NCBI GenBank assembly: GCA_030447865.1
Contig: JAUJOD010000004.1
Location: forward strand, 1 to 64,000
Source of the DNA: Nocardioidaceae bacterium
GTDB taxonomy: Bacteria > Actinomycetota > Actinomycetes > Propionibacteriales > Nocardioidaceae
Reading direction: 5' to 3'
Length of the DNA stretch: 64,000 nt
Under the pieces are notes generated by a model. That model made no database searches. It was not told the origin of the DNA and worked only from the letters and a program-made list of their open reading frames with translations. Position numbers and translations under genes: made by a program. Position 1 is the stretch's first letter; each line of letters begins with the position of its first letter. Shown here in pieces: positions 27,402 through 60,228 of this stretch.

Positions 27402-28178
27402 ATGCCAGCGGTGAGCCGAGGCGGGCGTGGCCGCCTGGTTGTAATGACCGGGGCCGCCGGTGGTATCGGGACCGCTGTCGTTCGCGCGCTGCTCGCCGAG
27501 TCGTACCGTGTGGCGCTGGTCGACAACGACAAGTGCGGTCTGGACGCCATCCAGGCCGACGAGAGTGCCGCGCCGACGTTCGTCTGCGACGTGGCCAACG
27601 CCGACCAGGTCGACGGCACGATCGCACAGATCGAGGAACACGTCGGGGCGATCTACGGGCTGGTCAACGTGGCGGGCGTGCTGCGCACCGGGCCGGTCGT
27701 CCGATGTGGAGACGATGATTGGGAGGCGGTGTTCGCCGTCAACGCACTGGGCGTCTTCCACTGCTCCCGCGCGGTGGCGCGGCGACTCATCACGCGGCGC
27801 GACGGCGCGATCGTTACCGTCGCGTCGGACGCGGCCAGCGTCCCACGTGTCGGCATGGCCGCGTACGCCGCGTCCAAGGCGGCGGCGGTGGCGTTCACGA
27901 ACTGCCTCGGCCTCGAGCTCGCGGCCAGCGGCATCCGGTGCAACAGCGTCGCCCCCGGCTCGACTGACACGACGATGCTGCGCTCGATGGGAACCGGGGA
28001 CGTCGTGAGCGCCGCGGTGGAAGGCCGGTCCGATCTCTTCCGCGTCGGCATCCCGCTCGGTCGGGTCGCCGATCCGGACGACATCGCCACCGCAGTCGAG
28101 TTCCTGTTGTCGGAGCGGGCCCGGCACATCACCATGCAGAGCCTCTACGTCGACGGTGGTGCGGCGCTTCGTGGCTGA
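27402..28178 (+). CDS. 2,3-dihydro-2,3-dihydroxybenzoate dehydrogenase (EntA-like SDR)
   Basis: A 258-residue short-chain dehydrogenase. The cofactor loop is [20 protein letters not shown]; the active-site pair is in [14 protein letters not shown]; and [17 protein letters not shown] is the EntA/DhbA-type signature that follows. It oxidises the dihydrodiol to 2,3-dihydroxybenzoate with NAD. It starts 5 bases after the isochorismatase stop and runs into the synthase gene, so the three steps are co-translated. Other dihydrodiol or 3-hydroxyanthranilate-type substrates are possible. Confidence 0.82.
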
Positions 28179-41448: not shown

Positions 41449-41490
41449 AATCTAGGCGCGCGAGATACACGCCGCCTACGATTCGGCTAC
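41449..41490 (-). promoter_or_regulatory. Triple-repeat SARP-type box for the dioxygenase operon
   Basis: Minus strand: GTA (41490-41488), GTA (41479-41477) and GTA (41468-41466), each 11 bases apart, then N11 and TAGATT (41454-41449), the best -10 of the set. The outermost triplet overlaps the stop codon region of the upstream LanB-like gene. Confidence 0.65.
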
Positions 41491-45114: not shown

Positions 45115-46176
45115 TCAGACGTACGACTCGCGGCCGCCCTGGCGGCGGACGTCGAGCGTGGCGCAGTGGAAGGACCCTCCTATGGCGTTGACGTGCTCGA
45201 ACGGCACAAGCGTCACATCGAACCCGCGCCGATCCAGCCGACGCGCCAGGTCGGTGTCCCGAGGATCGACGATAACCCGTTCATAGTCGACGCTGAGCAC
45301 GTTCATGTTGATCCAGCCGCTGGTCATGTACCGCGGCACGCGCCCCGGCGGGCGGGGGTGAGGCACGACGATCCGCTCCCAGCGGGCCAGCGGCGAGCGG
45401 TCCAGGACGTGGTCGGGTGCGCGGGTGGGATTGACCAGGATCACGCCGGGTCGAAGTGGCATGACCGTCGCGTCGATGTGCATGGCGTGCGGGTCATCCA
45501 CGTCGAGCAGGCTGACCCGGTAGTCGGGACCGAGCACGTTCCGAAGCCAGGCGACGCCAGAGCGGTTCGTGACGTGGCTTAGTTGTCCGATGATGTCGCG
45601 TCCCACCCGAATGAAGTCGGCCGCGTCGAAGGCCGGCGCCGCATCGTTGATCGCCCATCGACCGGTGTTCGACTCCAGGCGTCGCGGGTCCGTCCGCGGC
45701 GCGGAGACCCACCGCGCGCCGCGCTCGGCGTAGTCGGCCAACAGCCCCCGGTACGCGGCCGTTTCGTTCTGCCGCGACCGCCAGACCATCGGGGCCTCGA
45801 TGACGCTTGTGCCGACGACGAGCAGGCAGTCCCGCGGCATGGCGCTCGTGTGGCCTCCCCGGGCCGACCAGTCCACGCGGTCCGGGCGCCGCACCACGAC
45901 CCCTATGCCCGCGAGTACGTTGGCCAAGTGGTCCAGCTCGGCCTGGGCGGCGTCGACGATGTCGGCTGGGAACGGCTCACCGCCCTTGGTCAAGAAGAGG
46001 TCGTGCCATTCCGCCGGTATCGTGGACCTGATCATGCGCTCCGACTCGCGTGGTATCGCCGTGCCCGACGCCACCCCCACAATCGCCTCCTCCAGGAGAT
46101 CCCATTCGGAGAAGCACCTGACCGGCGACAACCCCTCCAACGCGTCGAGCGCGGTCAGTTCGGCTCTGGTCACCAT
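45115..46176 (-). CDS. L-arginine amidinotransferase (StrB1/AGAT family)
   Basis: A 353-residue enzyme that moves the amidino group of arginine to an amine. The catalytic Cys338 is in AIGGSFHCATLDV, its His in DDPHAMHIDATVMPLRPG, with an Asp/Glu-bearing SEWDLLEEAIVGVASG at the N-terminus. Length and motifs match inosamine-phosphate amidinotransferase StrB1 and glycine amidinotransferase. With Ino1 and a BtrS-like aminotransferase in the cluster, an inosamine acceptor is attractive; glycine or lysine are alternatives that the sequence does not exclude. ATG 46176 was chosen by alignment of the N-terminus with the family. Confidence 0.85.
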   Translation of the reverse strand: MVTRAELTALDALEGLSPVRCFSEWDLLEEAIVGVASGTAIPRESERMIRSTIPAEWHDLFLTKGGEPFPADIVDAAQAELDHLANVLAGIGVVVRRPDRVDWSARGGHTSAMPRDCLLVVGTSVIEAPMVWRSRQNETAAYRGLLADYAERGARWVSAPRTDPRRLESNTGRWAINDAAPAFDAADFIRVGRDIIGQLSHVTNRSGVAWLRNVLGPDYRVSLLDVDDPHAMHIDATVMPLRPGVILVNPTRAPDHVLDRSPLARWERIVVPHPRPPGRVPRYMTSGWINMNVLSVDYERVIVDPRDTDLARRLDRRGFDVTLVPFEHVNAIGGSFHCATLDVRRQGGRESYV

Positions 46177-46291: not shown

Positions 46292-47203
46292 ATGCCACGC
46301 CCATGCCGGATCGGTATCCAGTTGCCCGAAATCGAGCGTCGGGTCGACTGGCCAGAGCTGTTCTCGATGGCCCGCACGGCCGAGGCGGTCGGCTTTGACT
46401 CGCTGTGGCTTGGCGACCACCTGCTCCTCGACCGTCCCGGTGCCGCGCCGCGCGGACCGTGGGAGGTGTGGACCTCGCTCGCCGCGCTGGCCGCCGTGAC
46501 CGAGCGGGTCGAGCTCGGTCCACTGGTCGCATCGACGAACTTCCATGCGCCGGCGATGCTGGCCAAGCAGGCGGCGACGGTTGACGCCATCTCCGGCGGC
46601 CGGCTCATCGTCGGTCTCGGCGCGGGTTGGAACGAGCGGGAGTTCCGCGCCTTCGGCTTCCCATACGACCACCGGGTCTCCCGGTTCGAGGAGGCGTTCG
46701 CCATTATCCGGGGCCTGCTCCGAGACGGAAGCGTCGACTTCGACGGCCGGTACTACCACGTGGTCGACTGCGTGCTCGACCCGCCCACCGGGCGGCCCGG
46801 CGGCCCACCGTTGATGCTCGGCTCCGTCAGCCCCCGCATGCTTCGTATTGCACTGCCGCACGTGGACGCGTGGAACGTGTGGTTCAGCGACTACGGCAAC
46901 ACCCCCGAAGGATTTGCCCGCGTGTGTGACCGGGTCCACCGGGCGGCGGCCGGTGTCGGGCGGGCGCCGGAAGACGTCGCGGCGACCGCGGCGGCCTTCA
47001 TCCGCCTGCCTGGCGCGACCGGACGACCGGTGGTGGACCCCGGCCTTGCGTCGGTCGAGCCGGTCCGCGGGTCACCGGAGGACATCGCGGGCCACTGTGA
47101 CGCCATGGCCCGCGCGGGCGCCCGGCACCTGCAGCTCGTCGTGGACCCGATCAGCGAGACCTCGATCGAGTGGCTAGGCGAGTCGCTGGTCGCCCTCGGT
47201 TGA
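46292..47203 (+). CDS. LLM-family oxidoreductase, distinct subtype
   Basis: A 303-residue luciferase-like protein more distant from the other copies. CRIGIQLPEIERRVDWPELF starts it, followed by VGFDSLWLGDHLLLDRPG, VELGPLVASTNFHAPAMLAK, VDAISGGRLIVGLGAGWNER and RAFGFPYDHRVSRFEE. The GAGWNEREF motif is typical of F420-associated members. It precedes the carrier-protein operon and diverges from the amidinotransferase. In butirosin a flavin-dependent LLM enzyme, BtrO, hydroxylates the ACP-bound chain, so a similar role is possible. Confidence 0.75.
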   Translation: MPRPCRIGIQLPEIERRVDWPELFSMARTAEAVGFDSLWLGDHLLLDRPGAAPRGPWEVWTSLAALAAVTERVELGPLVASTNFHAPAMLAKQAATVDAISGGRLIVGLGAGWNEREFRAFGFPYDHRVSRFEEAFAIIRGLLRDGSVDFDGRYYHVVDCVLDPPTGRPGGPPLMLGSVSPRMLRIALPHVDAWNVWFSDYGNTPEGFARVCDRVHRAAAGVGRAPEDVAATAAAFIRLPGATGRPVVDPGLASVEPVRGSPEDIAGHCDAMARAGARHLQLVVDPISETSIEWLGESLVALG

Positions 47204-47215
47204 TCGCGCCGGACT

Positions 47216-47246
47216 GTATGGCCGGTGTAGCGGCACGGATCAGCGT
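47216..47246 (+). promoter_or_regulatory. SARP-type box for the carrier-protein operon
   Basis: GTA 47216-47218, N8, GTA 47227-47229, N11, CAGCGT 47241-47246. ATG 47254 lies 7 bases later, a probable leaderless start for an eight-gene operon. Confidence 0.6.
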
Positions 47247-47253
47247 TCGAACC

Positions 47254-48753
47254 ATGACCACGGCGCGTCTGCTGCACGATCTGCTGGACGTCGCAGCCGA
47301 GCGGTGGCCCGAGCGGGTGGCCTTGCGTCATGGCGCCGACAGTGCGACCTATGCCACCGTGCGGACCTGCAGTGAGCGGTTGGCGGCCTGGCTCATCGAG
47401 CTCGGTGTGCGCCCGGGCAACCGCGTCCTCATCGTTGTCCCGGGCGACGTGCTCGTTCCCGCGCTGCTGTTCGCCTGCTCCCGGGTCGGGGCGGTCCACG
47501 TGCTGCTGCACCCGGACGCACCGCCGGCCGCCGTGGCTCACGTTCTGGACGACGCGACTCCCGCCACGCTGGTCACCGGTCGCTCCGACCTGGTCCGGGT
47601 CGCCGAGGACCGCGGGATCCCCATTCACGGTCCGGACGCGGTGCGGACCGCCGCCGAGCGGCCGCGCCGGTTCGGCGGCGTCGGTGGCCCGACCGCCGTC
47701 GATCCGGCGTGTTTCATCTACACGTCCGGCTCCACGGCCATGCCGAAGGCCGTTGTGTGCACGCACCTTCAAATGACCTTCGCAGCGCAGGCCATCCAGT
47801 CGCGGCTGGAGTACCGCCCCGATGACGTCGTGTATTGCGCGCTGCCGATCTCGTTCGACTACGGGCTCTACCAGATCTTCCTCGCCACTATGGCCGGTGC
47901 GCAGCTAGTTCTGGCGTCAGCGGCGGGCGCCGGTCAACGACTCGCCGTCGAGCTGCGCGACGCCGGTGCCACCGTGCTGCCGGCGGTACCGTCACTGGCC
48001 GACAACCTGGCCCGGCTGCTGGTGCGGCGGCCCCTGCCGCTGCCCCGACTTGGCCTGCTGACCAACACGGGCGCGGCGATGCCGACGACCACGCTGGCCC
48101 TGCTTCGGGAGCGACTGCCGAACCTGCGGGTGCAGCTGATGTACGGCCTCACCGAGTGCAAGCGGGCCACCATCATGCCGAAGGACGAAGATCGGCGTCG
48201 GCCGGGCTCGTGCGGGCTGGGGCTGCCGGGCACCGCGATCTCCATTGTGGACGATGCCGGCCGTCCCCGCCCGGCCGGGTCCATGGGCGAGATCGTGGTG
48301 CGCGGGCCGAACGTCATGGCCGGGTACTGGCGGCGCCCCGACCTCACCCGCGAGCGATTCGTGCTCGACGACGGCATCCGTCCGTCCCTGCACACCGGTG
48401 ACTACGGCTGGCTCGACGATGAGGGGTACCTCTACCTCGTGGGTCGGCGCGACGACCTCTACAAGGAGCGCGGCTGCCGCGTCAGCGCGATCGAGGTGGA
48501 GGCCGCCGCGCGGGGAGTGCCAGGCGTGGACGCGGCGGTCGTGCTCGTGCCCGAACCTGGCAAGGACGGCGCGACGATCGTCGTGGCCGGACGCGTCTCG
48601 GCGGCCGAGGTGCTGGGCGGGATGCGTGACCGCATCGACGCGCTGAAGATTCCCCGCCGTTGCGTGGTCGTCCCCGATCTGCCGTTGACGGCCAGCGGCA
48701 AGGTGGCCCGGACGGAGCTGGCCGAGTTGGCCAGGGACCATGCGTTCGCGTGA
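47254..48753 (+). CDS. Acyl/aminoacyl-AMP ligase (carrier-protein loading)
   Basis: A 499-residue ANL-superfamily enzyme. ACFIYTSGSTAMPKAVVCTH is the P-loop, LPISFDYGLYQIFLATMAGA the substrate region, LMYGLTECKRATIMP the A5 motif, LHTGDYGWLDDEGYLYLVGR motif A7/A8, and ASGKVARTELAEL carries the catalytic Lys. It is followed in one operon by a PLP decarboxylase and an ACP, the order used to load an amino acid on an ACP and decarboxylate it. The substrate is probably an amino acid such as glutamate, aspartate or arginine; the specificity residues were not decoded. Confidence 0.82.
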   Translation: MTTARLLHDLLDVAAERWPERVALRHGADSATYATVRTCSERLAAWLIELGVRPGNRVLIVVPGDVLVPALLFACSRVGAVHVLLHPDAPPAAVAHVLDDATPATLVTGRSDLVRVAEDRGIPIHGPDAVRTAAERPRRFGGVGGPTAVDPACFIYTSGSTAMPKAVVCTHLQMTFAAQAIQSRLEYRPDDVVYCALPISFDYGLYQIFLATMAGAQLVLASAAGAGQRLAVELRDAGATVLPAVPSLADNLARLLVRRPLPLPRLGLLTNTGAAMPTTTLALLRERLPNLRVQLMYGLTECKRATIMPKDEDRRRPGSCGLGLPGTAISIVDDAGRPRPAGSMGEIVVRGPNVMAGYWRRPDLTRERFVLDDGIRPSLHTGDYGWLDDEGYLYLVGRRDDLYKERGCRVSAIEVEAAARGVPGVDAAVVLVPEPGKDGATIVVAGRVSAAEVLGGMRDRIDALKIPRRCVVVPDLPLTASGKVARTELAELARDHAFA

Positions 48754-49990
48754 GGCGGCCGGCGTCGACCTGGTCGAAACACCGGCCTATGTGTACTACC
48801 TGGACGAGTTGAGGGCCGCGCACGCGCGACTGCTCGCGGCCCTCCCCCAGCCGAGCACGCTGTTCTATTCACTCAAGGCCAACCCCCACCCGGCGATCGT
48901 CGGCACGCTGGGCCGGCTCGGCTGCTCGGCCGAGGTCAGTTCTCCCGGCGAGCTGGCGACCGCCCGAGCGGTCGGCATCGCGGCGGACCGGATTCTCGTC
49001 ACCGGCCCCGGCAAGCGGGACGCCGACGTTCGTGAGGCGGTCGAGGCCGGTGTCGACTGGTTCTCGGTCGACTCGCCGCACGGGCTGGACCAGGTCAACC
49101 GGATCGCGAACGCGGCCGGGCGTGACGCGCGGTGCCTGGTGCGCGTGAACGTGCCCGACGCCGTACCGGGTCAGGGTCTGGCGATGGCCGGCGGCGCCTC
49201 GCAGTTCGGCGCCGACGTGGAGTGGATAGCGGACCGTCCAGCCGATTTCCGCCGCGGACTCGCCGGACTCCATCTCTATCTGGGCACCAACCTGGCGTCC
49301 GAGCGGGACCTCCTGGCTCAGTTCGGCACGGCCATCGCCACGGCCGACCGGCTCACCGACGTGCTGGGCGTGCCACCCCAGCGACTCGACATCGGCGGCG
49401 GGTTCGGCGCGCCGTACGCCCGCACCGGCCCCGCCCCAGCCTTCGGGTCTCTGGCCGATGGCCTCGCCAACCTCCTCGACGCCCACTTCCCCGGCTGGAG
49501 GAACGGCCGGCCGAAGATCGCCTTCGAGTCTGGGCGCTACTTGGTGGCCACCAGCGGTGAGCTGCGCACCCGGGTGCTCGACGTCAAGGAGTCGTGCGGT
49601 CGGCCAGTGGTCGTGCTCGAGTCCGGGGTCAACCATCTGGGCGGCCTGTCCGGCCTGCGCCGGTTGCCGCTGATCGTCCCCGAACTGCAGCACGGGCGGG
49701 GCGACGGTGTGCTGCGGAACGCGATCATCACCGGACCGTTGTGTACTCCCGTCGATGCGTGGGCCCGGGGCGCCGACGCACCGGCCGTGCGCCCCGGTGA
49801 CGTCGTCCTCGTGTCCAATGTGGGCGCCTACGGGCTGTCCGCCAGTCTGCTGGCCTTTCTCGGCCACCCCGCGCCGCGCGAGGTCGTTGTCGATGGTGGC
49901 CGGATCGTCGATGTGACCCAGCTCGTGCTCGCGCGGCGGACCCCGCCCGGGGCTTGGTCGGATAGGGACGTGAACGACCATGAACGATGA
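48740..49990 (+). CDS. PLP-dependent decarboxylase, fold III (BtrK/VinO-like)
   Basis: A 416-residue enzyme of the ornithine/diaminopimelate decarboxylase family. PLP-binding Lys46 lies in STLFYSLKANPHPAIV; GLHLYLGTNL replaces the usual HxGS strand; RLDIGGGFGAPYA binds the PLP phosphate; and ITGPLCTPVD bears the catalytic Cys of the second protomer. It overlaps the ligase by 14 bases and the ACP start by 11, implying that it acts on aminoacyl-ACP, as BtrK does with glutamyl-ACP and VinO with methylaspartyl-ACP. Product would be an amine-ended acyl-ACP. Confidence 0.82.
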   Translation: MRSREAAGVDLVETPAYVYYLDELRAAHARLLAALPQPSTLFYSLKANPHPAIVGTLGRLGCSAEVSSPGELATARAVGIAADRILVTGPGKRDADVREAVEAGVDWFSVDSPHGLDQVNRIANAAGRDARCLVRVNVPDAVPGQGLAMAGGASQFGADVEWIADRPADFRRGLAGLHLYLGTNLASERDLLAQFGTAIATADRLTDVLGVPPQRLDIGGGFGAPYARTGPAPAFGSLADGLANLLDAHFPGWRNGRPKIAFESGRYLVATSGELRTRVLDVKESCGRPVVVLESGVNHLGGLSGLRRLPLIVPELQHGRGDGVLRNAIITGPLCTPVDAWARGADAPAVRPGDVVLVSNVGAYGLSASLLAFLGHPAPREVVVDGGRIVDVTQLVLARRTPPGAWSDRDVNDHER

Positions 49991-50237
49991 GTTCCTGTCG
50001 CTGCTGCGCCCGTTCCTCAGGTATGCCGGCGATCGGCCGATCCGGGCGGAGACGCCACTGCGCGATCTGGGCCTGGACTCGATGCGGACGATCGAGCTGC
50101 TGTTCGCGATCGAGGAGACCTACGAGGTCATCGTCCCCGATGGGATGCTGACCGACGCCACGTTTGAGACGACCGGCTCGCTCTGGGCCGCGCTCGAACA
50201 GCTGTGCGCCCCGACGCTCGACCGGAACGCCCGATGA
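49980..50237 (+). CDS. Acyl carrier protein
   Basis: An 85-residue carrier protein with the phosphopantetheine attachment Ser34 in LRDLGLDSMRTIELLFAIEE. It is wedged between the decarboxylase and an acyl-CoA-dehydrogenase-like gene and overlaps both, so it is almost certainly their shared carrier. The PPTase at 58.4 kb would activate it. It might also accept the dihydroxybenzoyl unit, since that operon has no carrier. Confidence 0.9.
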   Translation: MNDEFLSLLRPFLRYAGDRPIRAETPLRDLGLDSMRTIELLFAIEETYEVIVPDGMLTDATFETTGSLWAALEQLCAPTLDRNAR

Positions 50238-51388
50238 ACCGCCGGCTGACGGACGCGGTGGAGTCGGTCCGGTCCGCCGCCGAACGGCATGCGGACACGG
50301 GCGACCGCGCCGCAGAGTTTCCGGTGGAGGCAGTGTCCGCGATGCGGGCCACCGGCGTGCTGGGCTTGCCTGTGCCGACCGACCACGGCGGGCTGGGTGG
50401 CTCCGTGTCCGACGTCGTCGACGTCACGCTGGCCCTGGGCCGGGTTGACATGTCGGTCGCGATGATCTTTGGGATGCACTGCCAGCAGGTACTCGTCGTG
50501 GCCAAACACGGCGGGCAACGGCTGGTCGATCAGGTTTTGCCGGACATCGCCGCCGGCGAGGTGTACCTGGCCTCGGTGACGACCGAGCCGGGCACGGGCG
50601 GTCACCTGCTCACCAGTGACTCCACGACCACCCTGCTCGACGGTGGCGCGGTCCGGATCGACCGGGAGGCCCCGATCGTGACCGGCGGCCGCCACGCCGA
50701 CGCGTTCCTGGTCACCGTTCGCGCGCCCGACGCGCAGTCACCGGCGCAGGTGAGCCTCGTGTACGCCGCACGCGACCAGGTCCAGGCGGACGTCTGCGGC
50801 GGCTGGGATCCTCTCGGCATGCGGGCCACCGAGAGCGTGGCGATGCGCCTGACCGGCAGCGTCCCGGCCCACCAGGTGATCGGAGCGGACAGCTATCGCC
50901 GCATTGCGACGACGATGCTCGCGCCGGTGGCCCACATCGTCTGGTCCGCCGCCTGGCTGGGCACCGCCGTCGGTGCCTACGGTCGGGTCGTTCGGCATGT
51001 CCGCGACCCCGCCGGCCGCCGCCAGTTCGACCCCTCCTCCGACCTCCTGCTCCACCGGCTGGCGGCGACCAGGGCACGCCTGGACGTCGTACACGCGTTG
51101 CTGCGCCACACGGTTCGGGTGTTCGAGTCCGGGGTCGACGTGGCCGCGGGACCCGTGCAGATGCTGCTGAACACGCTTAAGACGCAGTCGGCCGACGACT
51201 GCTTCAGTGCCGCGCATGAGCTGGTCGAATTGACCGGCATGCGCCACGGCTACCTCCCCGACTCCTCACTGGGTCTGGAGCGTGCGTTCCGGGATCTCCG
51301 CTCGGCCTCGCTGAATTACGGCAACGACCGGCTGCGGCTTGCCAGCGGCGCGCTGGCGCTGATGGACGCTGGAGTCCACCTTGCCTGA
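50234..51388 (+). CDS. Acyl-CoA dehydrogenase-like enzyme, first of a pair
   Basis: A 384-residue flavoprotein-like member of the ACAD family. RATGVLGLPVPTDHGGLGGS opens the helical N-domain; YLASVTTEPGTGGHLLTSDS is the beta-domain segment that binds FAD; LELTGMRHG appears as LVELTGMRHGYLPDSSLGLE near the end, where the fold carries the FAD-contacting loop. The catalytic Glu could not be located with confidence. ATG 50234 overlaps the ACP stop (ATGA). It probably desaturates or oxidises the ACP-bound chain, as in aminomalonyl or hydroxylated extender pathways, perhaps as a heterodimer with the next protein. Confidence 0.75.
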   Translation: MNRRLTDAVESVRSAAERHADTGDRAAEFPVEAVSAMRATGVLGLPVPTDHGGLGGSVSDVVDVTLALGRVDMSVAMIFGMHCQQVLVVAKHGGQRLVDQVLPDIAAGEVYLASVTTEPGTGGHLLTSDSTTTLLDGGAVRIDREAPIVTGGRHADAFLVTVRAPDAQSPAQVSLVYAARDQVQADVCGGWDPLGMRATESVAMRLTGSVPAHQVIGADSYRRIATTMLAPVAHIVWSAAWLGTAVGAYGRVVRHVRDPAGRRQFDPSSDLLLHRLAATRARLDVVHALLRHTVRVFESGVDVAAGPVQMLLNTLKTQSADDCFSAAHELVELTGMRHGYLPDSSLGLERAFRDLRSASLNYGNDRLRLASGALALMDAGVHLA

Positions 51389-52484
51389 GCATGCGCCCTT
51401 GCGGGGTCTGGTGGCTGGCGCGGCCAACGGCGCCGAGGACGCCCGCTCGCTGTGGCGCGCCCTCGGCGAGGCGGGGGTCATCGAGCGTGTCGGGTGGACA
51501 TCCAAGGACCCCGACGACATCGCGCGCCTGGATGACCTATTGTCCGAACTGGACGGTCGGCTGCCCCTCGGACTGGTTCTCTCCGTGTGCGTGCAGGTCG
51601 CCCTCGCGGTGCCGCTGCTGGCGACCGCATCCGAAACGAGCGGGTTGGCCCGGGAGGTGCTGGCCGACGCTGTGGCGGGCCGGGCGGTCGTGGCGATCGC
51701 CGTCACGGAGGCCGGGCTGTCCGGTTCGGCCACCCTCGACGCCGCGACCGCCGTCCGCTCGGCCGACGGGTCGCTCCGCCTGACCGGAGGCAAGGAATGG
51801 ATCAGCAACGCCCGACACTGCGACCACGTGATGGTCCTCGCCCGCTGCCGCCCGGAGCGTCACATCACGAGCTTCTGTTGGGTCCTCATCCCGGCCGTCG
51901 CCCCCGGCGTGACGGTTGAGCCCGCGTCGAACCGGTACTTCGGCCAGGCCGGCGTGGGACATCTGCGCTTCGACGACGTGGCGCTGGCCGAGGATCGTGT
52001 CGTCGGCCAGCGCGGCCGGGCGCTAGCGGAGTTCGTCCGGGCCCTCCAGAGGGAGCGGCTGGCCGGCGCCCTGTGGGGCCGGGCGCTGTGTCGGAGGGTG
52101 CTCGTGGAGACCCTCGACCACCTGCGCCGGCGGCCGGCGGGCCCGACGACCCTCTGGGACAACGCCGCCATTCGCGATCGCTTCGCCCGGTGCCTGGTGG
52201 CGCAGGCCCGCTTGGACGCGCTGTGCTCGGTGTTCCCGGCCGGTTCGGCAGCACGTCCGGCGGCCGGTCCGGCGGCCATGGTGCTCAAGGCCGCGTGCGG
52301 TGAGACCGTCAATCGGATCCTCGACGAGTGCGTCGACCTCACCGGGGCCGACGCGTTCCGCGACGGCGGACTGGCCGGCCTGCGGGAGGAGGCGACGATG
52401 TTCGGCGTGGCCGGCGGTGCCACCGGGACGATGCTCGCCGGAATCGCCGAACACGCCGACGACCTGCTGCTGGTCGGGTCATGA
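51381..52484 (+). CDS. Acyl-CoA dehydrogenase-like enzyme, second of a pair
   Basis: A 367-residue ACAD homologue. VAIAVTEAGLSGSATLDAAT and LTGGKEWISNARHCDHVMVL are the FAD-binding and substrate-contacting strands; LQRERLAGALWGRAL begins the C-terminal helical domain. The TTG at 51381 is the only in-frame start that respects the GGAG at 51371-51374, and it overlaps the previous gene by 8 bases. It is shorter at the N-terminus than stand-alone ACADs, which favours a complex with its neighbour. Confidence 0.72.
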   Translation: MPEHAPLRGLVAGAANGAEDARSLWRALGEAGVIERVGWTSKDPDDIARLDDLLSELDGRLPLGLVLSVCVQVALAVPLLATASETSGLAREVLADAVAGRAVVAIAVTEAGLSGSATLDAATAVRSADGSLRLTGGKEWISNARHCDHVMVLARCRPERHITSFCWVLIPAVAPGVTVEPASNRYFGQAGVGHLRFDDVALAEDRVVGQRGRALAEFVRALQRERLAGALWGRALCRRVLVETLDHLRRRPAGPTTLWDNAAIRDRFARCLVAQARLDALCSVFPAGSAARPAAGPAAMVLKAACGETVNRILDECVDLTGADAFRDGGLAGLREEATMFGVAGGATGTMLAGIAEHADDLLLVGS

Positions 52485-53395
52485 TGGCCGCGCTCACCTG
52501 CTACACGACCGCCCTGCACGGCTACCTCGGGGTCGAGTGGGACGCCGACAGCATCATCGCGCGCTCGATCCGGCTCGCCGTGCGGGCCGACGAGCCGGAC
52601 GGGACGCTCGCGTTCTCGCATCATGATCCCCCGCTGGACCGACTGCCCGACGGGTCCACGCTGCGGTACGCTGGAGCGTCCAGCGCGACGGCCGCCCTGG
52701 ACGGCTTGCGCGAGGAGTGGGCCCGCCACCGACGGGCCGTCGTGGTCGTCGACCTGACACGGTTGGACTGGTCGGTGCGGCGTTCCGGGGACGCCCAGCC
52801 CCACTGGCTGCTGATCGACGGCCGGGTCGGCGGACGGTGGCACGTCGTCGACCGGTTCGCCGCCACGATGCCTGAGGGTGATCAGTACCCCTACGAGGGT
52901 TGGACGAGCGACGATCGGCTGACAGCGGCCATGAGGTTGCCCCGACGGTCTAGCCCCAGCCATCGGCTTCGCAACGCGCTCGCCTTCGGCGCTCCGGTTC
53001 CCGTGCCCTGCCAGAGCTGGCTCTGGCTCCGCCGCGGCAGCTCGGACGCGGCGACGGCGCCACCCGGTGACCGATGGTCCGATGATCCGGTTGAGGTCTT
53101 CGAGTTGTTGCGCACCTATGTGGAGGCCGGCCCGGAGCGCCTGGCCCGGGTGCAGGACGACCTGTGGGCCGCCGCGCGTCACCGGGCGTTCGCCTATCGC
53201 TGGTGGCTCGCCCGTCCCATCGACGACCGTCGCCGCGATGAGCTGCGGCGCGCCGTGGTCAGCTGGGAGTCGGTGCCACGAGCGGTCCGGTTCGCCGTGG
53301 AGTCGGCCCGGCGGGGCCGCTCGCGCCCCGCCCTAGTCGCCGCGGCACTGGACGCGGTGCGCCAGGCTGAGGGGAGGCTCGGGTGCTTGGTGTAG
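52481..53395 (+). CDS. BtrH-like cysteine acyltransferase, short form
   Basis: A 304-residue protein with the BtrH N-domain layout in compressed form. Cys7 sits in TCYTTALHGYLG, His108 in AQPHWLLIDGRVGG and Asp124 in WHVVDRF, the presumed triad. The C-terminal half is helical and Arg-rich. It overlaps the ACAD stop (ATGA) and the adenylation enzyme start, so it is made together with the ACP. Inference: it receives the chain from the ACP and passes it to an amine. It shares little sequence with the copy at 5.24 kb beyond the triad pattern, so a cysteine-peptidase-fold protein of other function is possible. Confidence 0.5.
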   Translation: MMAALTCYTTALHGYLGVEWDADSIIARSIRLAVRADEPDGTLAFSHHDPPLDRLPDGSTLRYAGASSATAALDGLREEWARHRRAVVVVDLTRLDWSVRRSGDAQPHWLLIDGRVGGRWHVVDRFAATMPEGDQYPYEGWTSDDRLTAAMRLPRRSSPSHRLRNALAFGAPVPVPCQSWLWLRRGSSDAATAPPGDRWSDDPVEVFELLRTYVEAGPERLARVQDDLWAAARHRAFAYRWWLARPIDDRRRDELRRAVVSWESVPRAVRFAVESARRGRSRPALVAAALDAVRQAEGRLGCLV

Positions 53396-54933
53396 GGTCC
53401 ACCGCTGACACGCTGTACGAACGGTTCGCGCGGACCGCGATCCGCTACCCGGACGTGCCGGCGCTTGAGGTCGACGGCGAGCGGTTGAGCTACGCACAGC
53501 TGAGCAACCTGGCCGAGGGGGTGTCGGCGGCGTTGCCCGCGGCCTGTGGGCCGGGATGGCGCGTCAGCGTGTACGGCGGACGGCACGCGGCGACGTACGC
53601 GGCCTATCTGGCCGTGCTCCGCCGCGGCGCCGCAGTGGTTCCGCTGCATCCGGGACTGCCGGCGGCGCGCGCGGCCGCGATCTGCCGGGCGGCCGGGGTG
53701 CGGGCGGTCATGGTCGATCCCGCGACGCCCGCGGACCCGGCCGTGGCCGCACTGCCGGACGTGGCCATCGTCCCCGCGGATGGTGACGCCTGTAATACCG
53801 CGGCGGCGACGACGCCTGCCGGGCCCGATGACCTCGCCTACGTCCTGTTCACTTCCGGATCGACGGGCCGCCCCAAGGGCGTTCCCATCCGACATCGCCA
53901 CGTGGCCCGCTACCTGTCGCACTGCGTGGACCGCTACTCGGTCGGTCCCGGCAGCCGGCTCTCGCAGGCCTTCGAGCTCAGCTTCGATCCCTCCGTACAT
54001 GACATGTTCGTGGCCTGGTCGGGCGGGGCGACCCTGATCGTGCCGTCCCAGCCGGAGCTGCTCACGGTCGCCCGCTTCGTGGCCGATCGGGGGATCACGC
54101 ACTGGTTCTCCACCCCATCAGTGATCTCCCTCGCCGACCGGCTGCGCGGTCTTGCGCCCGGGTCCATGCCGACACTGCGGTGGAGCCTGTTCGCCGGCGA
54201 ACAACTGACCCTGGCCCAGGCCCGGCTCTGGTCCGACGCGGCGCCGTCGTCGGCCGTCGAGAATCTCTACGGCCCCACGGAGTTGACCATCACCTGCCTT
54301 GGCTATCGGCTGCCGGACGCGTCTACGCCGTGGCCACGCACGGTTAACGGCACGGTCCCGATCGGCCGCCCGTACCCCCACGTCGAGGCCATCGTCCTGG
54401 GCGAGGACGGGACGCCAGCCGACGAGGGCGAGCTGTGTCTGCGCGGTCCCCAGCGCTTCGACGGTTACCTCGACGACGCGGACAACGACGGCCGGTTCCT
54501 CGGCGCGGGCGCCGCAGCGCCCCCGAACCGGCGACGGCCCGCCGCCGATGACTGGTACCGCACCGGCGACCGGGTGAGCCTGCAGGCCGGCGAGCTGGTC
54601 CATCTGGGACGGACGGACGACCAGGTGAAGGTGAACGGGTACCGGGTGGAGCTCAGCGAGATCGAGGGTGCTCTGCGGGATGCGCCGGGCGTACGGGACG
54701 CGGTCGTCGTCGCGGTCCCGTCGGATGCCGGGATACGGCTGCACGCGGCGTACACCGGCCACCCATGGGAGGCCGACACCCTGGCCGACTACCTGAGGAC
54801 GCGGCTGCCCGCATACATGGTGCCGGTCTCGTTCCGGCCGCTCGAGCGGGTGCCGGCCGGCGAGACGGGCAAGGTCGACCGGCGCCGGGTGCAGGATCTC
54901 TTCCGTCCGGTCGACGCGCACAGCCCGACGTGA
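53383..54933 (+). CDS. Stand-alone adenylation enzyme
   Basis: A 516-residue NRPS-type adenylation domain with no carrier attached. LAYVLFTSGSTGRPKGVPIR is A3, FELSFDPSVHDMFVAWSGGA covers A4 with its Asp, WSLFAGEQLTL precedes ENLYGPTELTITCLG (A5), DWYRTGDRVSL is A7, LGRTDDQVKVNGYRVELSEI is A8, and ETGKVDRRRVQ carries the A10 Lys. The FDPS Asp suggests an alpha-amino acid. It would load either the free ACP or the ACP fused to the BtrH-like protein that follows convergently. The truncated copy at 7.7-8.8 kb is its closest relative in the window. Confidence 0.85.
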   Translation: MLGVGSTADTLYERFARTAIRYPDVPALEVDGERLSYAQLSNLAEGVSAALPAACGPGWRVSVYGGRHAATYAAYLAVLRRGAAVVPLHPGLPAARAAAICRAAGVRAVMVDPATPADPAVAALPDVAIVPADGDACNTAAATTPAGPDDLAYVLFTSGSTGRPKGVPIRHRHVARYLSHCVDRYSVGPGSRLSQAFELSFDPSVHDMFVAWSGGATLIVPSQPELLTVARFVADRGITHWFSTPSVISLADRLRGLAPGSMPTLRWSLFAGEQLTLAQARLWSDAAPSSAVENLYGPTELTITCLGYRLPDASTPWPRTVNGTVPIGRPYPHVEAIVLGEDGTPADEGELCLRGPQRFDGYLDDADNDGRFLGAGAAAPPNRRRPAADDWYRTGDRVSLQAGELVHLGRTDDQVKVNGYRVELSEIEGALRDAPGVRDAVVVAVPSDAGIRLHAAYTGHPWEADTLADYLRTRLPAYMVPVSFRPLERVPAGETGKVDRRRVQDLFRPVDAHSPT

Positions 54934-55481
54934 AGAGCGACATGGCATCGTCCGTGACCGCCACCCGCACTGTGACACCGGCCAGATTACGCTCGGTCGC
55001 TCGTCGCTTCGCCACCGGCGTGACCGTGGTGACGTCGCGGGCCGACGGCGCTCCGGTGGGCATGACCGTCAACTCGTTCGCCACCGTGTCGCTGGAGCCG
55101 GCCACCGTCGTCGTTGCGGTACGCGTCGGCAGCCGGCTCGCCTGCGCCGTCCGGCGATCGGGCGTCTTCGCGATCACGGTGCTCGCCGCCGGCCAGACGG
55201 CCTGCGCACGCCGGTTCGCCGACCCGAAACGGCCGTTCGGGGCCGCGTGCTTTGCCGAGTTCGCCACGCACCCTGAGCCGTCCACCGGATGCCTCGTCCT
55301 CAGCGACGGGATCGCGTACTTCGCGTGCTCCGCCCACGCCGCTCACCGGTACGGTGACCACATAGTGCTGATCGGAGGGGTGACGGCGTGCGGGCCGCTG
55401 CGGGCCGCGCCGGCCCTGGCCTTCGCGGATGGAGTGTTCACCCACCTGGACACGGCCGCGTCGGACGATCCGGTCCGCTGA
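54930..55481 (+). CDS. Flavin reductase (NAD(P)H:FMN, BtrV-like)
   Basis: A 183-residue flavin-reductase-domain protein. FATGVTVVTSRADGAPVGMT and VNSFATVSLEPATVVVAV are the FMN-binding strands, and a His near HRYGDHIVLIGGVTACG ends the barrel. It provides reduced FMN for two-component monooxygenases, most likely one or more of the LLM proteins (compare BtrV with BtrO). GTG 54930 overlaps the adenylation stop (GTGA); ATG 54942 is the alternative start. It is the last gene of the carrier operon and ends 5 bases before the convergent BtrH-ACP gene. Confidence 0.85.
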   Translation: MKSDMASSVTATRTVTPARLRSVARRFATGVTVVTSRADGAPVGMTVNSFATVSLEPATVVVAVRVGSRLACAVRRSGVFAITVLAAGQTACARRFADPKRPFGAACFAEFATHPEPSTGCLVLSDGIAYFACSAHAAHRYGDHIVLIGGVTACGPLRAAPALAFADGVFTHLDTAASDDPVR

Positions 55482-55486
55482 GCGCC

Positions 55487-56668
55487 TCACGCTGACGCCG
55501 GCGACCCGCGGGCGAACGCGCGGCACAGGCCATCGATGTCGGTCAGCTCATCCGCGGCCACGTCGGACGGCAGCAGCACGCCGAGCGTGCGCTCGACCCG
55601 GTCGATCAGGCGGACGAGTTGGAACGAGTCGAAGCCCGACAGCGACCGCAGCGGCAGTTGGGGGTTGACGTCGCGGTCGTCGAGCCCGAGCGTGGCGCCG
55701 AGGGCTCCTCGTACGGCGGCGGCCAGGGCGGGATCCGGACCGCCGATCGACCGGTCCAGGCACTCCTGGGCGAAGCGGATGTCCGCCCGCAACTGCTCGG
55801 CGATGTCGTCGATGAGACCATTCTGGACGCTTCCCCCGCGCTCCAACCGCCGGAGCGCGAGGAAGCTGTGCGCGGCCAGCTGCTCCCAGGCGCCGGCCCG
55901 CTCGATCGCCGCGGCGGCCACGGGATGGTCCGGGCCCAGCCACGCGGTGTGGAGGCGCCGCTCCCGGCCCAGCAGCCAGACGTCCAGCACCAGACCCCTG
56001 ATCACCTCGGGGTCGACCAGGCGCTCGCGGCGCTCCGCGACGTAGCGCTCGACGCCGGGCGCCGCCGCGCGTGCCCGCTGTGCGTTGTCGGCGAGCGCGG
56101 CGGTGGTGTCCAGGGCCGGCGGGCCGTTATCGAGCTCGACCGACGCCACTAACGCGTTCTCACCCACCGCAGAACGCAGGGCACGAGCGCTCAACGCCCA
56201 GGCGCCGGGCCGGGCCGGGCCCCATGGGGTGTCGTTGTGGTAGGGGTCGACGACGAGAATGTCATCCACGCGCGACTCGACCAGGAAACCGTGGTCCATG
56301 TGACTACGACGGTGGTATGGCAGCCAGGGCAGCGCGAACGCATCGGCGACGACGTACACGGGTCCGGCCGCGCAGAGGCGGGCGAGGTCACACGGATCGT
56401 GACGCTGGCCGATCCGCAGCCCCAGCAGATCGCGGGCCTGGGCCAGCCGCTGCTCCGGGCCGGGCTGGACGCCGGTCGTCGCGTCGGCCTGCCGGCCCGG
56501 CATGCTCCAGCGCGAGCCGAGACGGAGGTGGGTTCCGCGGCCATGCGCGTCGTCGGCGATGAGCGCGAGCGTGGTCTGCAGGCAGTCCAGGGCATCTGCC
56601 CGGAGGCCAGCCAGTGCCGCGCACCACCGATGTCGATGGACCGGCCGCGGTCCGGCGTTGGCGGTCAC
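55487..56668 (-). CDS. BtrH-like acyltransferase fused to an acyl carrier protein
   Basis: A 393-residue two-domain protein. The N-terminal part has a BtrH-type triad: Cys29 in ADALDCLQTTL, His126 in SHMDHGFLV and Asp141 in ILVVDPYHND, with the buried strand GPVYVVADAFALPWLPYH between. The middle (residues 150-310) is helical. The C-terminal 80 residues form a carrier domain with Ser348 in LRSLSGFDSFQLVRLID. GTG 56668 has GGGAGG upstream and lies at the predicted transcription start. Such a fusion would let the enzyme keep its own acyl donor. I know of no described protein with this pairing, but could not search. Confidence 0.65.
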   Translation of the reverse strand: MTANAGPRPVHRHRWCAALAGLRADALDCLQTTLALIADDAHGRGTHLRLGSRWSMPGRQADATTGVQPGPEQRLAQARDLLGLRIGQRHDPCDLARLCAAGPVYVVADAFALPWLPYHRRSHMDHGFLVESRVDDILVVDPYHNDTPWGPARPGAWALSARALRSAVGENALVASVELDNGPPALDTTAALADNAQRARAAAPGVERYVAERRERLVDPEVIRGLVLDVWLLGRERRLHTAWLGPDHPVAAAAIERAGAWEQLAAHSFLALRRLERGGSVQNGLIDDIAEQLRADIRFAQECLDRSIGGPDPALAAAVRGALGATLGLDDRDVNPQLPLRSLSGFDSFQLVRLIDRVERTLGVLLPSDVAADELTDIDGLCRAFARGSPASA

Positions 56669-56747: not shown

Positions 56748-58370
56748 TTAATGCTTGGCCCGCAGGTGCAGCACGTCGTCACCGAGGACGAGAACCTCCA
56801 CGCCGAGCCGCAGGGCGCAGTCAACCGCGTGCGCGGCCGTCTCCACGAGCGGCTCGCCCGGCCCGTTGAAGGACGTGTTGATGAGCACCGGCGGGTGACC
56901 CGCCCGACCGAGGCCATCGAGCACGGCGCTGACGAAGTCCTCGTCGCCGGGGCGAAGACGCTGCGGTCGCGTCGTGTTGTCCACATGACGGACGGCGGGA
57001 ATCGCCTCGATTCCCCGGTCGGTGAGCGCTGCCGCACCGACCATGTATCGTTCCAGTTCTCCAGCGGACGACCACAGGTCAAGGTCGGCGTTGGTGACCG
57101 GGCCGAATGGCCGCCACGGCTCCCGACCCTTGAGGCGGTTCAGCCGGTCGCGCATCGCCGCCGTTACCGGTGAGGCTAGGAGCGACCGGTGGCACAGCGC
57201 CCGCGGGCCAACCTCGCTTCGCCCCCGGCACACTGCGACGATCTGCCCATCGGCGAGCAAGCCCGCCACGCGATCCACACTTAGCGCCTCCGTTGCCACC
57301 ACACGCGTCGAGTCCAGCCCGTCGGGTGCCGGGCCGGGTAGTCCTCCCGCGTAGGCGGAAAGTAACTGCCGTTCGCGCGGTGGTATCACTGACCAGGCCG
57401 CCCCGAGCGCCACGCCAGCATCGTGCGGCACCGGCGGCACATAGACCGGCCCGGCGAGCCGGCCGTTGGCCGCGCAGTTGAGACCGACACCGCCCGCAAT
57501 GCACAGGTCATCGAGGCCGGTTGCCTTGCGGGCCAGACCTGCGAGCCACGTGACGGCGGACTCGACGGTCGTCTGCGCCGCCCAGGCAACCCGAACCGCC
57601 ACCGGGTCGTTCGCAAGGCCGTCCGCCGATGTCGCGGCCTGGTCCACACCAGCGAATCGCACGATCTCCGCCCGCCACAGCTTCATCAGCTCGTGATAGT
57701 TGAGCATCGGGTCGGAGCCGAGGAGGGACACGAGATCTTCGTTGATGATGCTAATCCAGCCCGGGTCTGGGATATCAATGCCCCGGCCGTAGGCGGCGAG
57801 CCCCATCGTCTTGCCCGCAGCCAGAATGCCCAGGCCGAGCCAGTCACTGACGGCTTCGTAGAGGTAGCCGAGGCTGCACACGCGAGGCCAGCTCATCAGG
57901 CGAATCAATGGCTCACCGCGGCGGGCCCGAAAGATCGACACAGACTCGTCCTCGCCGTTTCCGTCGGTCACTAGGACGGCGGCCGCGTCGTATGGGCTCG
58001 CATAGAACACCGACGCAGCGTGGGCACGGTGGTGCGGGATGAAGTAGATGTCGGGATTGTGCGGGCCAACGAAGCCAAGTCCCGCGAGAAATTCGCGAGG
58101 TGTCTCGAACTCCCATCCAGGACCGTGCCGGGCCCGAACTCGCGGCTCGTCCCAGCCCACCGCCACGGCGTCAACGTCATGCGGGGCGATGCCACCAAGG
58201 TTCAGACAGTGCCGCACGGCGCGGGAAGGCATGGCCCGTGGGGCGTGGCGGACCCGGGTCAGACGTTCCTCCTCTATGGACGCGACGATGGCGCCTCGTC
58301 CGTCGATCAGGCAGGCACTGGGGTCGTGGGAGGCCGCCGTACCACAGTTGACCCCTACGACGTACGTCAC
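56748..58370 (-). CDS. O-carbamoyltransferase (TobZ/NodU/CmcH family)
   Basis: A 540-residue enzyme that makes carbamoyl-adenylate from carbamoyl phosphate and ATP and transfers it to a hydroxyl. The N-terminal Kae1-like domain has VVGVNCGTAASHDPSACLID, metal-binding HHRAHAASVFYASPYDAA and LVTDGNGEDES; the C-terminal YrdC-type domain has GRSEVGPRALCHRSLLASP and PPVLINTSFNGPGEPLVET. The acceptor is probably a cyclitol or sugar hydroxyl. The GTG start overlaps the PPTase stop (GTGA), making it the third gene of the Ino1 operon. Confidence 0.9.
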   Translation of the reverse strand: MTYVVGVNCGTAASHDPSACLIDGRGAIVASIEEERLTRVRHAPRAMPSRAVRHCLNLGGIAPHDVDAVAVGWDEPRVRARHGPGWEFETPREFLAGLGFVGPHNPDIYFIPHHRAHAASVFYASPYDAAAVLVTDGNGEDESVSIFRARRGEPLIRLMSWPRVCSLGYLYEAVSDWLGLGILAAGKTMGLAAYGRGIDIPDPGWISIINEDLVSLLGSDPMLNYHELMKLWRAEIVRFAGVDQAATSADGLANDPVAVRVAWAAQTTVESAVTWLAGLARKATGLDDLCIAGGVGLNCAANGRLAGPVYVPPVPHDAGVALGAAWSVIPPRERQLLSAYAGGLPGPAPDGLDSTRVVATEALSVDRVAGLLADGQIVAVCRGRSEVGPRALCHRSLLASPVTAAMRDRLNRLKGREPWRPFGPVTNADLDLWSSAGELERYMVGAAALTDRGIEAIPAVRHVDNTTRPQRLRPGDEDFVSAVLDGLGRAGHPPVLINTSFNGPGEPLVETAAHAVDCALRLGVEVLVLGDDVLHLRAKH

Positions 58371-59047
58371 AGCTCATCCACTGCGGCGACGAGGATAGGG
58401 CTGGCCGAGAGCACGGCGACGGCGGCAGCGTAACCGTCGGGGACCGTGAGATCGGACATGCTGGCGCGCAGGTTGGGGCGCGGGCCGTACCGCAGCAGCC
58501 CGGCCGGTTCGGCGGCCGGCGTGACGGTCAAATCGGACATCGGCGCCCGCAGGCCGTCCCCGGTGGCCTTGACCATCGCCTCCTTGCGAACCCAGTACCG
58601 GAAGAACTCGGCTGCACTGCGGGCCGCCTCGCCCGGTGCGAGCACGCGCTGGGCGAGGCCGGCCGGATCGATGTCGGCGCGCACGCGTTCGACATCGACA
58701 CCGACCGGTACGCCCTCGGTCAGGGCGAACAGAACCCGGTCGGCGGAGTGCGAGATCGATAGCGCCAGGCTGCATCCCGGCAGCGTCGGCCGGCCGTGCT
58801 GTCGTCCACAATGGTCGCAGGTCCGGTCTATGACGACCCGTTCGGGAGCGAAGCCGAGCCGACGCCCGACCGCCACCTTCGCCAGTACCGAGCCGAGGGT
58901 GAACCGAGTCCGGTCGGCCTCCCGCCGGAGCCCGGCGCGGCGCTTGCGTTCCGAGGCGCTGAGCAGGCGCACGTGTTCCGGCCGCTCCCGGCCGAGGTCG
59001 ACGGACCACACCTCGACCTCGACCTGGTGTACCTCAACGTCGATCAC
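58367..59047 (-). CDS. 4'-phosphopantetheinyl transferase (Sfp type)
   Basis: A 226-residue enzyme that arms carrier proteins with phosphopantetheine from CoA. SLALSISHSADRVLFAL, VPVGVDVERVRADID (Mg-binding Asp and Glu) and YWVRKEAMVKATGDGL (WxxKEA) are the family signatures. It should activate the free ACP and the BtrH-fused ACP. GTG 59047 overlaps the Ino1 stop (GTGA). An imperfect repeat of PMSDLTV near residues 180-206 gives two nearly identical short segments, an unusual local duplication. Confidence 0.88.
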   Translation of the reverse strand: MIDVEVHQVEVEVWSVDLGRERPEHVRLLSASERKRRAGLRREADRTRFTLGSVLAKVAVGRRLGFAPERVVIDRTCDHCGRQHGRPTLPGCSLALSISHSADRVLFALTEGVPVGVDVERVRADIDPAGLAQRVLAPGEAARSAAEFFRYWVRKEAMVKATGDGLRAPMSDLTVTPAAEPAGLLRYGPRPNLRASMSDLTVPDGYAAAVAVLSASPILVAAVDEL

Positions 59048-60228
59048 AGACCCGGCGGCCGATCGAGGGCGTTCGCCCACGCGGTGAGCATCCGGAACTG
59101 CGCCGCCAGGGAGTGTTCGGAAGTGCCTATCGGGTCCTTGAAGAAGAACGCCAGCTGGGTGATCGGGCCGCGCTGCCCGGCGGCATGCCCGGCCGCGACG
59201 AGGCGGGTCAGGTCGAGAACCAGCGGCGCCGCCAGCGTCGAGTCCACGCCGCACCAGGTCACCTGCATCGACATCCGCACGCCCAGAAAACCCTCGAACG
59301 AGACGTGGTCCCAGGCCGTCTTGTGGTCCCCGAGGTCCGGCACGTTGTCTATGTGCAGCGGCGCCTTCACATCCTCGCCGAGCAGCGACTGGAGCACGCT
59401 CGACTTGGAGGTGAGTTTGCTGCTGGCGATGTGCGGATCCTCCAGCGTGGCACCGTCGCCCCCGCCGAGCAGGTTGATGCCGGCCCACGACAACACGCGC
59501 AGCTGCCGTACCGCGAACATCGGGGCCAGGACCGTCCGTAGCAGGGTCTCGCCGGTCTTGCCGTCGGAGCCGGCGAACGGAACGCCCCGCCGCTGAGCCA
59601 GCGCAGTCAGCGCCGGCAGCCGGGCGCCGGTCGACGGGGTGAAGTCGACGAACGGGCAGCCGGCCTGGAATGCGGCATACGCTACGACCGAACTGGGTGG
59701 CAGGACGAGCCGGTCCGGCTGCGACAGGGCAGCCGCCATCGCGTCGGGGTCGCCGTGCTCGGGCTGGCCCGGGAACGGCGCCTCGGTCGAGGCGATGTTC
59801 ACGACGACCACGCGCTCCAGGCCGTGCCGGCTGCGGAAGTCGCCGATGTCAGACGCGAGCCGGTCCACGGCGTCCGCCTGCGTGCCCGGGTGAGTCGCCG
59901 GGTCGTACCCGGTCCGTACCTCCCGCTCGATGGCCGCGAGCCCGCGCCGTACCGGCGACAGCACCGGCCGTGGGATCACCCCGTTGTCGACGAGCATCTC
60001 GGCGCGCTTCTCCAGCGGCGTGCCGAGGATGTCGTGGCCACCGACCACGATCTCCGACCACGGGACCAGCGGGGCGCGGTCCAGCGCAGGGGAGTCGGTC
60101 ACGCAACCAGTGCTCGGCATCAGGTTGTCCCTCACCGCGAGCAGGCCGGTGATGGCAGTCGTCGCCACCGAGCCCCGCGCGCCGTTGAGCCAGAGCCCGA
60201 TGGGCGAGGCATGACTGCTAGCGGTCAC
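59044..60228 (-). CDS. ino1: myo-Inositol-1-phosphate synthase
   Basis: A 394-residue enzyme that cyclises glucose 6-phosphate to inositol phosphate with NAD. LWLNGARGSVATTAITGLLA is the dinucleotide loop, VVVNIASTEAPFPGQPEHGD the next block, VPFAGSDGKTGETLLRTVLA carries the catalytic Lys, and LGDHKTAWDHVSFEGFLGVR the second catalytic Lys. A dedicated copy in a cluster normally feeds a cyclitol pathway, as in hygromycin A. It heads an operon with PPTase and carbamoyltransferase. GTG 60228 has GAAGGGGA upstream. Confidence 0.88.
   Translation of the reverse strand: MTASSHASPIGLWLNGARGSVATTAITGLLAVRDNLMPSTGCVTDSPALDRAPLVPWSEIVVGGHDILGTPLEKRAEMLVDNGVIPRPVLSPVRRGLAAIEREVRTGYDPATHPGTQADAVDRLASDIGDFRSRHGLERVVVVNIASTEAPFPGQPEHGDPDAMAAALSQPDRLVLPPSSVVAYAAFQAGCPFVDFTPSTGARLPALTALAQRRGVPFAGSDGKTGETLLRTVLAPMFAVRQLRVLSWAGINLLGGGDGATLEDPHIASSKLTSKSSVLQSLLGEDVKAPLHIDNVPDLGDHKTAWDHVSFEGFLGVRMSMQVTWCGVDSTLAAPLVLDLTRLVAAGHAAGQRGPITQLAFFFKDPIGTSEHSLAAQFRMLTAWANALDRPPGL

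Follow-up and report, generated by a model that had tools for sequence, protein, structure and literature searches.

Which acyl unit is assembled by a carrier-protein operon whose enzymes recall butirosin biosynthesis, and to which amine is it handed over? The question is raised by positions 46292-56668 of a 64,000-nucleotide stretch (the window), which comprises positions 1 to 64,000 of contig JAUJOD010000004.1 (assembly GCA_030447865.1) from a Nocardioidaceae bacterium. The window genes were called and then searched against Pfam, NCBIfam and the Protein Data Bank (PDB). These searches confirmed what an initial annotation had listed: an acyl-AMP ligase (AMP1), a BtrK-like decarboxylase, an acyl carrier protein (ACP) and a flavin reductase in one operon, together with two proteins resembling acyl-CoA dehydrogenases (ACADs; here ACD1 and ACD2) and an extra adenylation enzyme (AMP2). 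The same annotation saw a close analogue of the butirosin pathway, a label that we reject on the aspartate pocket of AMP1 and the poor conservation of the monooxygenase gene in front of the operon; moreover, the order of the cassette matches vicenistatin (PMC11284099) and bolagladin (PMC7756342) assembly. It is best described as a carrier-bound beta-amino-acid assembly combining vicenistatin/bolagladin loading, alanosine-type oxidation and BtrH-type transfer, and the unit made is probably not the butirosin side chain. Tentatively, we favour a reading in which an aspartate-derived beta-alanyl unit would be N-hydroxylated and dehydrogenated on the ACP and passed to an amine by BtrH-type transfer. 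No description of the cassette, or of this combination of three logics, was found in the open-access literature searched.

A conserved gene cassette

An ACD1 alignment, scanned against 84,980 species genomes, yielded 80 loci, nearly all in Actinobacteria, 13 of them of the alanosine type; counts given below out of 55 or 35 refer to the 55 non-alanosine loci with full flanks, among which the 35 holding AMP1 are called Asp-type. AMP1, the BtrK-like gene, ACP, ACD1 and ACD2 are collinear in 36 of the 39 loci holding all five, spanning Micromonospora, Streptomyces, Amycolatopsis, Kribbella, Actinomadura and others; the operon is therefore real and its gene grouping far beyond chance. In the window adjacent genes overlap from AMP1 through AMP2, possibly excepting ACD2, whose start may lie 23 bases past ACD1, and co-translation of this series is therefore likely. 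ACD2 and BtrH_c-ACP, a putative acyltransferase fused to a carrier domain, are present in 54 of the 55 full-flank loci, 51 of these 54 having AMP2 as well. Both AMP1 and the BtrK-like gene are present in 34 of the 55, one has AMP1 without the BtrK-like gene, and 20 have neither. Asp-type and core-type loci together, the alanosine loci left aside, number more than 60 in actinobacteria. Two Streptomyces plasmid records carry the same gene set, one of them without ACD2. Within the window's own family the cluster is rare, since only one of 342 genomes searched, that of the window itself, holds ACD1.

Predicted loading and decarboxylation

AMP1 (47254-48753; genes lie on the plus strand where no strand is given) has 3wvn as its best PDB match (E 4e-111). 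In VinN, Asp230, Ser299 and Arg331 are the residues binding the amino and alpha-carboxyl groups (PMC7756342); because all three fit one numbering offset in 3wvn, this structure agrees with being VinN. By alignment they correspond to D202, T272 and R304 of AMP1, and among the AMP1 homologues the first position is Asp in 44/44, the second Thr in 43/44 and the third Arg in 43/44. We predict a VinN-type ligase acting on the beta-carboxyl group of aspartate or methylaspartate.

The next gene (48740-49990) encodes a pyridoxal phosphate (PLP)-dependent enzyme whose closest PDB relatives are the BtrK structures 2j66 and 7ru7 (E ~1e-50), identifying it as a BtrK/VinO-type decarboxylase, with a predicted carrier-bound substrate. 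The free ACP (49980-50237; PF00550, E 2e-8) has its phosphopantetheine serine, S34, kept across 69 sequences. In vicenistatin biosynthesis the thioester is made first and decarboxylation by VinO comes afterwards (PMC11284099); given this order, the VinN-type ligase and the BtrK-like decarboxylase, beta-alanyl-ACP or its methyl homologue is the expected intermediate.

Two unlike acyl-CoA dehydrogenase homologues

The two ACAD homologues were treated alike in the initial annotation, but their active sites differ. ACD2 (51381-52484, start possibly at 51411) carries Glu225-Arg226 at the position known from isovaleryl-CoA dehydrogenase, with E225 in 65/65 sequences, and its best profile match is the acyl-ACP dehydrogenase MbtN (E 7e-30). 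ACD1 (50234-51388), in contrast, is devoid of Glu at both known ACAD base positions in 83/83 sequences, throughout which His234, Asn361 and Asp365 are invariant. A function of both proteins as desaturases was set aside on these residues. ACD1 shares the motif GxWxxLGMRxxxS (GDWxxLGMR) with the flavin monooxygenase DszC, and its profile matches are mixed, the E-values for acyl-CoA dehydrogenases and for DszC differing by no more than twofold.

In the phylogenetic tree, the homologues from the 13 alanosine-type loci form one supported clade nested inside the ACD1 family, and they have H234, N361 and the missing Glu in common with ACD1. The homologue from Streptomyces alanosinicus (locus L095) is 50.7% identical to ACD1; this locus also encodes SbnA/SbnB-like, adenylation, thioesterase and FMN-reductase proteins and, judged by species and gene content, appears to be the alanosine cluster, as expected. 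Reviews describe the N-hydroxylation of diaminopropionate on its carrier as the presumed role of AlnG/AlaD (PMC11705231; PMC7347517), and both this substrate and the one predicted here bear an amine beta to the carrier thioester. It is mainly because of the nested AlnG clade and this same beta-amine geometry that we infer ACD1 to be a flavin-dependent N-hydroxylase of a carrier-bound beta-amine.

Putative BtrH-like acyltransferases

Two BtrH-like proteins, one inside the operon (BtrH_b, 52481-53395) and one beside it (BtrH_c, 55487-56668), had been recognised before, and folds and triads bear this out; what had been missed is that the outer one lies on the minus strand and continues into a C-terminal carrier domain (PP-binding, residues 318-384) with an invariant S348. 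A BtrH-ACP fusion of this kind was not found described in the open-access literature searched. The AlphaFold2 models (mean pLDDT 93.3 for BtrH_b and 93.1 for BtrH_c) were matched by Foldseek to AziU2-U3, the top match, and to CtaG, and that of BtrH_b also to CcbD (E 3e-9 to 9e-6). The Cys-His-Asp arrangement, on which the initial annotation had made the assignment depend, is kept at sequence level in both proteins, with C7/H108/D124 of BtrH_b (38 sequences) and C29/H126/D141 of BtrH_c (64 sequences) conserved to at least 95%. The profile search that it proposed gave a divided answer: neither BtrH_b nor BtrH_c itself matches Pfam BtrH_N (PF14399), but 8/29 BtrH_b homologues (best E 1.1e-5) and 5/36 BtrH_c homologues (best E 0.0044) do.

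CcbD transfers an acyl group from its carrier to an amino sugar by way of the catalytic cysteine (PMC12945683), and BtrH is an ACP:aminoglycoside acyltransferase (PMC10318531). Fold and triad favour the prediction that BtrH_b and BtrH_c are papain-fold acyltransferases. Aziridine synthesis in the manner of AziU3 is less favoured than acyl transfer because of the conserved Cys-His-Asp, although the fold match alone cannot decide between them. A third BtrH-like gene (5262-6275), distant from the operon, gives a weak BtrH_N match (E 0.006) and has a 40% identical counterpart in Kibdelosporangium persicum.

Second adenylation enzyme and probable flavin supply

AMP2 (53383-54933) is an amino-acid adenylation enzyme whose best PDB matches, 8k4r (E 2e-96) and 6akd (E 5e-90), we take to be VinM and IdnL7, of the vicenistatin/incednine type. 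Its specificity code is DPHFLALITK, from which the amino acid could not be read, and the code differs between Asp-type loci and those without AMP1 and the BtrK-like gene.

The flavin reductase (54930-55481, starting with GTG at 54930 or ATG at 54942; PF01613, E 2e-31) belongs to the StyB/FerA/HpaC class, its NCBIfam matches to StyB and FerA staying below the cut-off. In front of the operon there is indeed a luciferase-like (LLM-class, F420/FMN) oxidoreductase gene (46292-47203; PF00296, E 5e-50; NCBIfam F420-LLM subfamily matches below the cut-off), but it is present in just 2-3 of the 35 Asp-type loci and is therefore not counted as a conserved member of the cassette. Both parts of the BtrO/BtrV-like unit assumed earlier are present in the window, but the LLM enzyme and the reductase are not a conserved pair; reduced flavin is more probably supplied to ACD1 than to the LLM enzyme.

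Proposed route and its alternatives

In the route that we tentatively prefer, AMP1 would adenylate the side-chain carboxyl group of L-aspartate and load isoaspartate on the free ACP, whereupon the BtrK/VinO-type enzyme would strip the alpha-carboxyl group to leave beta-alanyl-ACP; these two steps are predicted from close homology and conserved residues. ACD1, with the flavin reductase as feeder, would then hydroxylate the beta-amine, as family nesting and active-site residues suggest, and ACD2 would dehydrogenate the acyl unit, its Glu225 taking the alpha-proton. AMP2 would add an amino acid, either on the amine (as in vicenistatin) or via the ACP of BtrH_c, and BtrH_b and BtrH_c would relay the finished acyl group via a cysteine thioester to an amine acceptor. 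Dehydrogenation, the role of AMP2, the acceptor and the product are what we infer beyond this, and a unit N-hydroxylated and/or dehydrogenated on the ACP is the best model. The outline given by the initial annotation, a decarboxylated carrier-bound amino acid that is probably oxidised further and then transferred by BtrH-type enzymes, is thus supported by sequence and fold, but the close analogy with butirosin is not.

Several observations weigh against our preferred route. AMP1 has Thr in place of Ser299 of VinN; ACD1 matches ordinary acyl-CoA dehydrogenases as well as DszC in profile searches, and N-hydroxylation by AlnG is itself only a proposal in the reviews cited (PMC11705231; PMC7347517). 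The flavin reductase is encoded in just 18/35 Asp-type loci. Furthermore, 20/55 relatives hold the core of ACD1, ACD2, ACP, AMP2 and BtrH_c without AMP1 and the BtrK-like enzyme, and the substrate of ACD1 and ACD2 may therefore be an amino acid that AMP2 has loaded.

A possible, though on balance improbable, alternative follows bolagladin: both ACAD homologues would function as one dehydrogenase yielding N-acyl-dehydro-beta-alanyl-ACP, N-hydroxylation would not take place, and the BtrH-type proteins would transfer an enamide. This accords with the catalytic Glu kept by ACD2 and with the resemblance of AMP2 to what is presumably a vicenistatin-type N-aminoacylating enzyme. BolO, BolC, BolN and BolQ have been proposed to make dehydro-beta-alanine in just this order (PMC7756342), but ACD1 lacks both base positions, groups with AlnG and carries the DszC motif, the alanosine loci and locus L012 have it but no ACD2, and a dehydrogenase needs no flavin reductase.

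It is unlikely, in our judgement, that ACD1 and ACD2 oxidise an AMP2-loaded amino acid, whether it sits on the free ACP or on that of BtrH_c, while the aspartate ligase and decarboxylase just supply a beta-alanyl partner in some clusters. The strict order of AMP1, BtrK-like gene, ACP, ACD1 and ACD2 with overlapping genes argues otherwise, as does the beta-amine geometry common to beta-alanyl-ACP and the presumed AlnG substrate; the 20 loci keeping ACD1, ACD2, BtrH_c-ACP and AMP2 without AMP1 or the BtrK-like gene would nevertheless be accommodated, as would the difference in AMP2 code between the two locus groups and the finding that in 6 of 10 such genomes searched no protein resembles the decarboxylase more closely than at LysA level. 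A butirosin-like chain, in which a glutamate-derived acyl group is hydroxylated by the LLM enzyme and transferred by BtrH, is very improbable in spite of the BtrK-like enzyme, the BtrH-type fold, the flavin reductase, the LLM gene and ATP-grasp genes located in the window outside the operon, as AMP1 has a VinN-type Asp pocket, the LLM gene is almost never kept with the cassette and, just as first annotated, no member of the BtrG gamma-glutamyl cyclotransferase family is present among the Pfam-scanned window genes.

Returning to the N-hydroxylation and dehydrogenation of beta-alanyl-ACP, these would give a malonyl semialdehyde oxime, able to close to isoxazolin-5-one. That the cassette is such a carrier-bound route, with the oxime or enamine of beta-alanyl-ACP closing via oxygen onto the thioester aided by BtrH, we consider quite doubtful. 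A TrpB-like PLP enzyme (63134-64000, minus strand, continuing outside the window to C8:64462; NCBIfam NF009057 above cut-off), whose gene is found in 19/35 Asp-type loci, could then join the ring to serine to form isoxazolinonyl-alanines such as TAN-950. TAN-950 is an isoxazolinonyl-alanine from Streptomyces (PMC9293202), and beta-alanine is incorporated into isoxazolinone derivatives according to unpublished data mentioned in a leaf-beetle paper (PMC4839037); no biosynthetic pathway of TAN-950 was found in the literature searched. As a variant, an aziridine-2-carbonyl unit might arise from the same N-hydroxy intermediate, which an AlkZ-like glycosylase of the window and of K. persicum would fit.

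If both N-hydroxylation and dehydrogenation prove true, the cassette would allow the bacterial formation of small N-O units to be tested directly, and would serve as a tag in mining for new antibiotics.

Genomic setting and putative acceptor

The cassette sits in a large cluster, parts of which recur in Kribbella albertanoniae, K. persicum and Amycolatopsis coloradensis. According to gene calling and family searches, the flavin reductase is followed on the minus strand by BtrH_c-ACP, a carbamoyltransferase, a 4'-phosphopantetheinyl transferase (58367-59047; PF01648, E 1.5e-12 in an overlapping longer open reading frame) and a myo-inositol-1-phosphate synthase homologue (59044-60228; Pfam). The phosphopantetheinyl transferase would activate the carriers of the cluster, and in several relatives its gene lies inside the operon. 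In Micromonospora, genes for the inositol-phosphate synthase, a DegT aminotransferase and a Gfo/Idh protein adjoin the cassette; the synthase is 71% identical to that of the window, in five Micromonospora, and the aminotransferase 63%. The Gfo/Idh protein of the window (at 15720) is an IolG-like dehydrogenase. These adjoining homologues and the IolG-like dehydrogenase suggest an inositol-derived aminocyclitol as the likeliest amine acceptor in this cluster.

The cluster with these inositol genes also holds an amidinotransferase (45115-46176) matching HsvA, AGAT, SxtG and StrB1. A block at 26846-31220 encodes an isochorismatase, a short-chain dehydrogenase/reductase, a salicylate synthase (TIGR03494 above cut-off) and an aryl-AMP ligase, that is, an aryl acid unit. 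The AlkZ-like DNA glycosylase (PF06224; 32327-33433), with a 53% identical gene in the related cluster of K. persicum, may signal a DNA-alkylating product, and a 767-amino-acid protein (41487-43790) with no Pfam or NCBIfam match has a 45% identical counterpart in the same species. A role as starter unit for a macrolactam-type polyketide synthase (PKS) is unsupported, as no ketosynthase family is found among the Pfam-scanned window genes and no such motif, by a simple pattern, in the neighbouring L004-L005.

Elsewhere, a second cassette type, which lacks the Asp ligase and the decarboxylase and has carbamoyltransferase and ATP-grasp genes, was observed in L038, L039, L063 and others, L038 having aminotransferase and flavin oxidoreductase genes in addition. 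On the Streptomyces plasmids L009, L010 and L013, ectoine genes adjoin AMP1, a BtrK-like gene and an ACP gene, with no ACD1; this is a different Asp-type carrier cassette, and L009 also encodes a YcaQ-family DNA glycosylase. At L008 (29393-41479), the cassette has as neighbours paralogues of glutamyl-tRNA ligase, hemA and hemB, which may confer self-resistance to a tetrapyrrole synthesis inhibitor. The cassette contig L074, filed as Burkholderia multivorans, groups with Streptomyces sequence and may be mis-assigned.

Comparison with known systems

With butirosin (BtrI, J, K, O, V, H, G) the cassette shares BtrK-type decarboxylation, the flavin reductase and, as predicted, BtrH-type transfer; however, the ATP-grasp enzyme BtrJ loads Glu there, whereas the operon described here has an AMP-forming ligase with an Asp pocket, no BtrG, no conserved LLM gene and a BtrH-ACP fusion. 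The papain-like amide synthases CcbD/LmbD and CtaG share the predicted fold and the Cys-His-acid arrangement with BtrH_b and BtrH_c at 10-15% identity. L-alanosine biosynthesis contributes the closest likeness to ACD1, in about 51% identity and the same active-site residues, but it loads L-2,3-diaminopropionate, and its loci are without Asp ligase, decarboxylase, ACD2 and BtrH. Common to vicenistatin and fluvirucin (VinN, VinO, VinL, VinM) and the cassette are the Asp-type ligase, the predicted carrier-bound PLP decarboxylation, the free ACP and, if the best AMP2 structures are what we take them to be, a VinM-like second adenylation enzyme; no PKS, VinK-type acyltransferase or VinJ-type aminopeptidase was seen with the cassette, which instead has a pair each of ACAD homologues and BtrH-type proteins. 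Bolagladin (BolO, BolC, BolN, BolQ) likewise combines an Asp ligase, an ACP and a BtrK-like decarboxylase followed by an ACAD homologue, but its single dehydrogenase BolQ feeds a non-ribosomal peptide synthetase, whereas the cassette has two unlike ACAD homologues and a predicted BtrH-type transfer.

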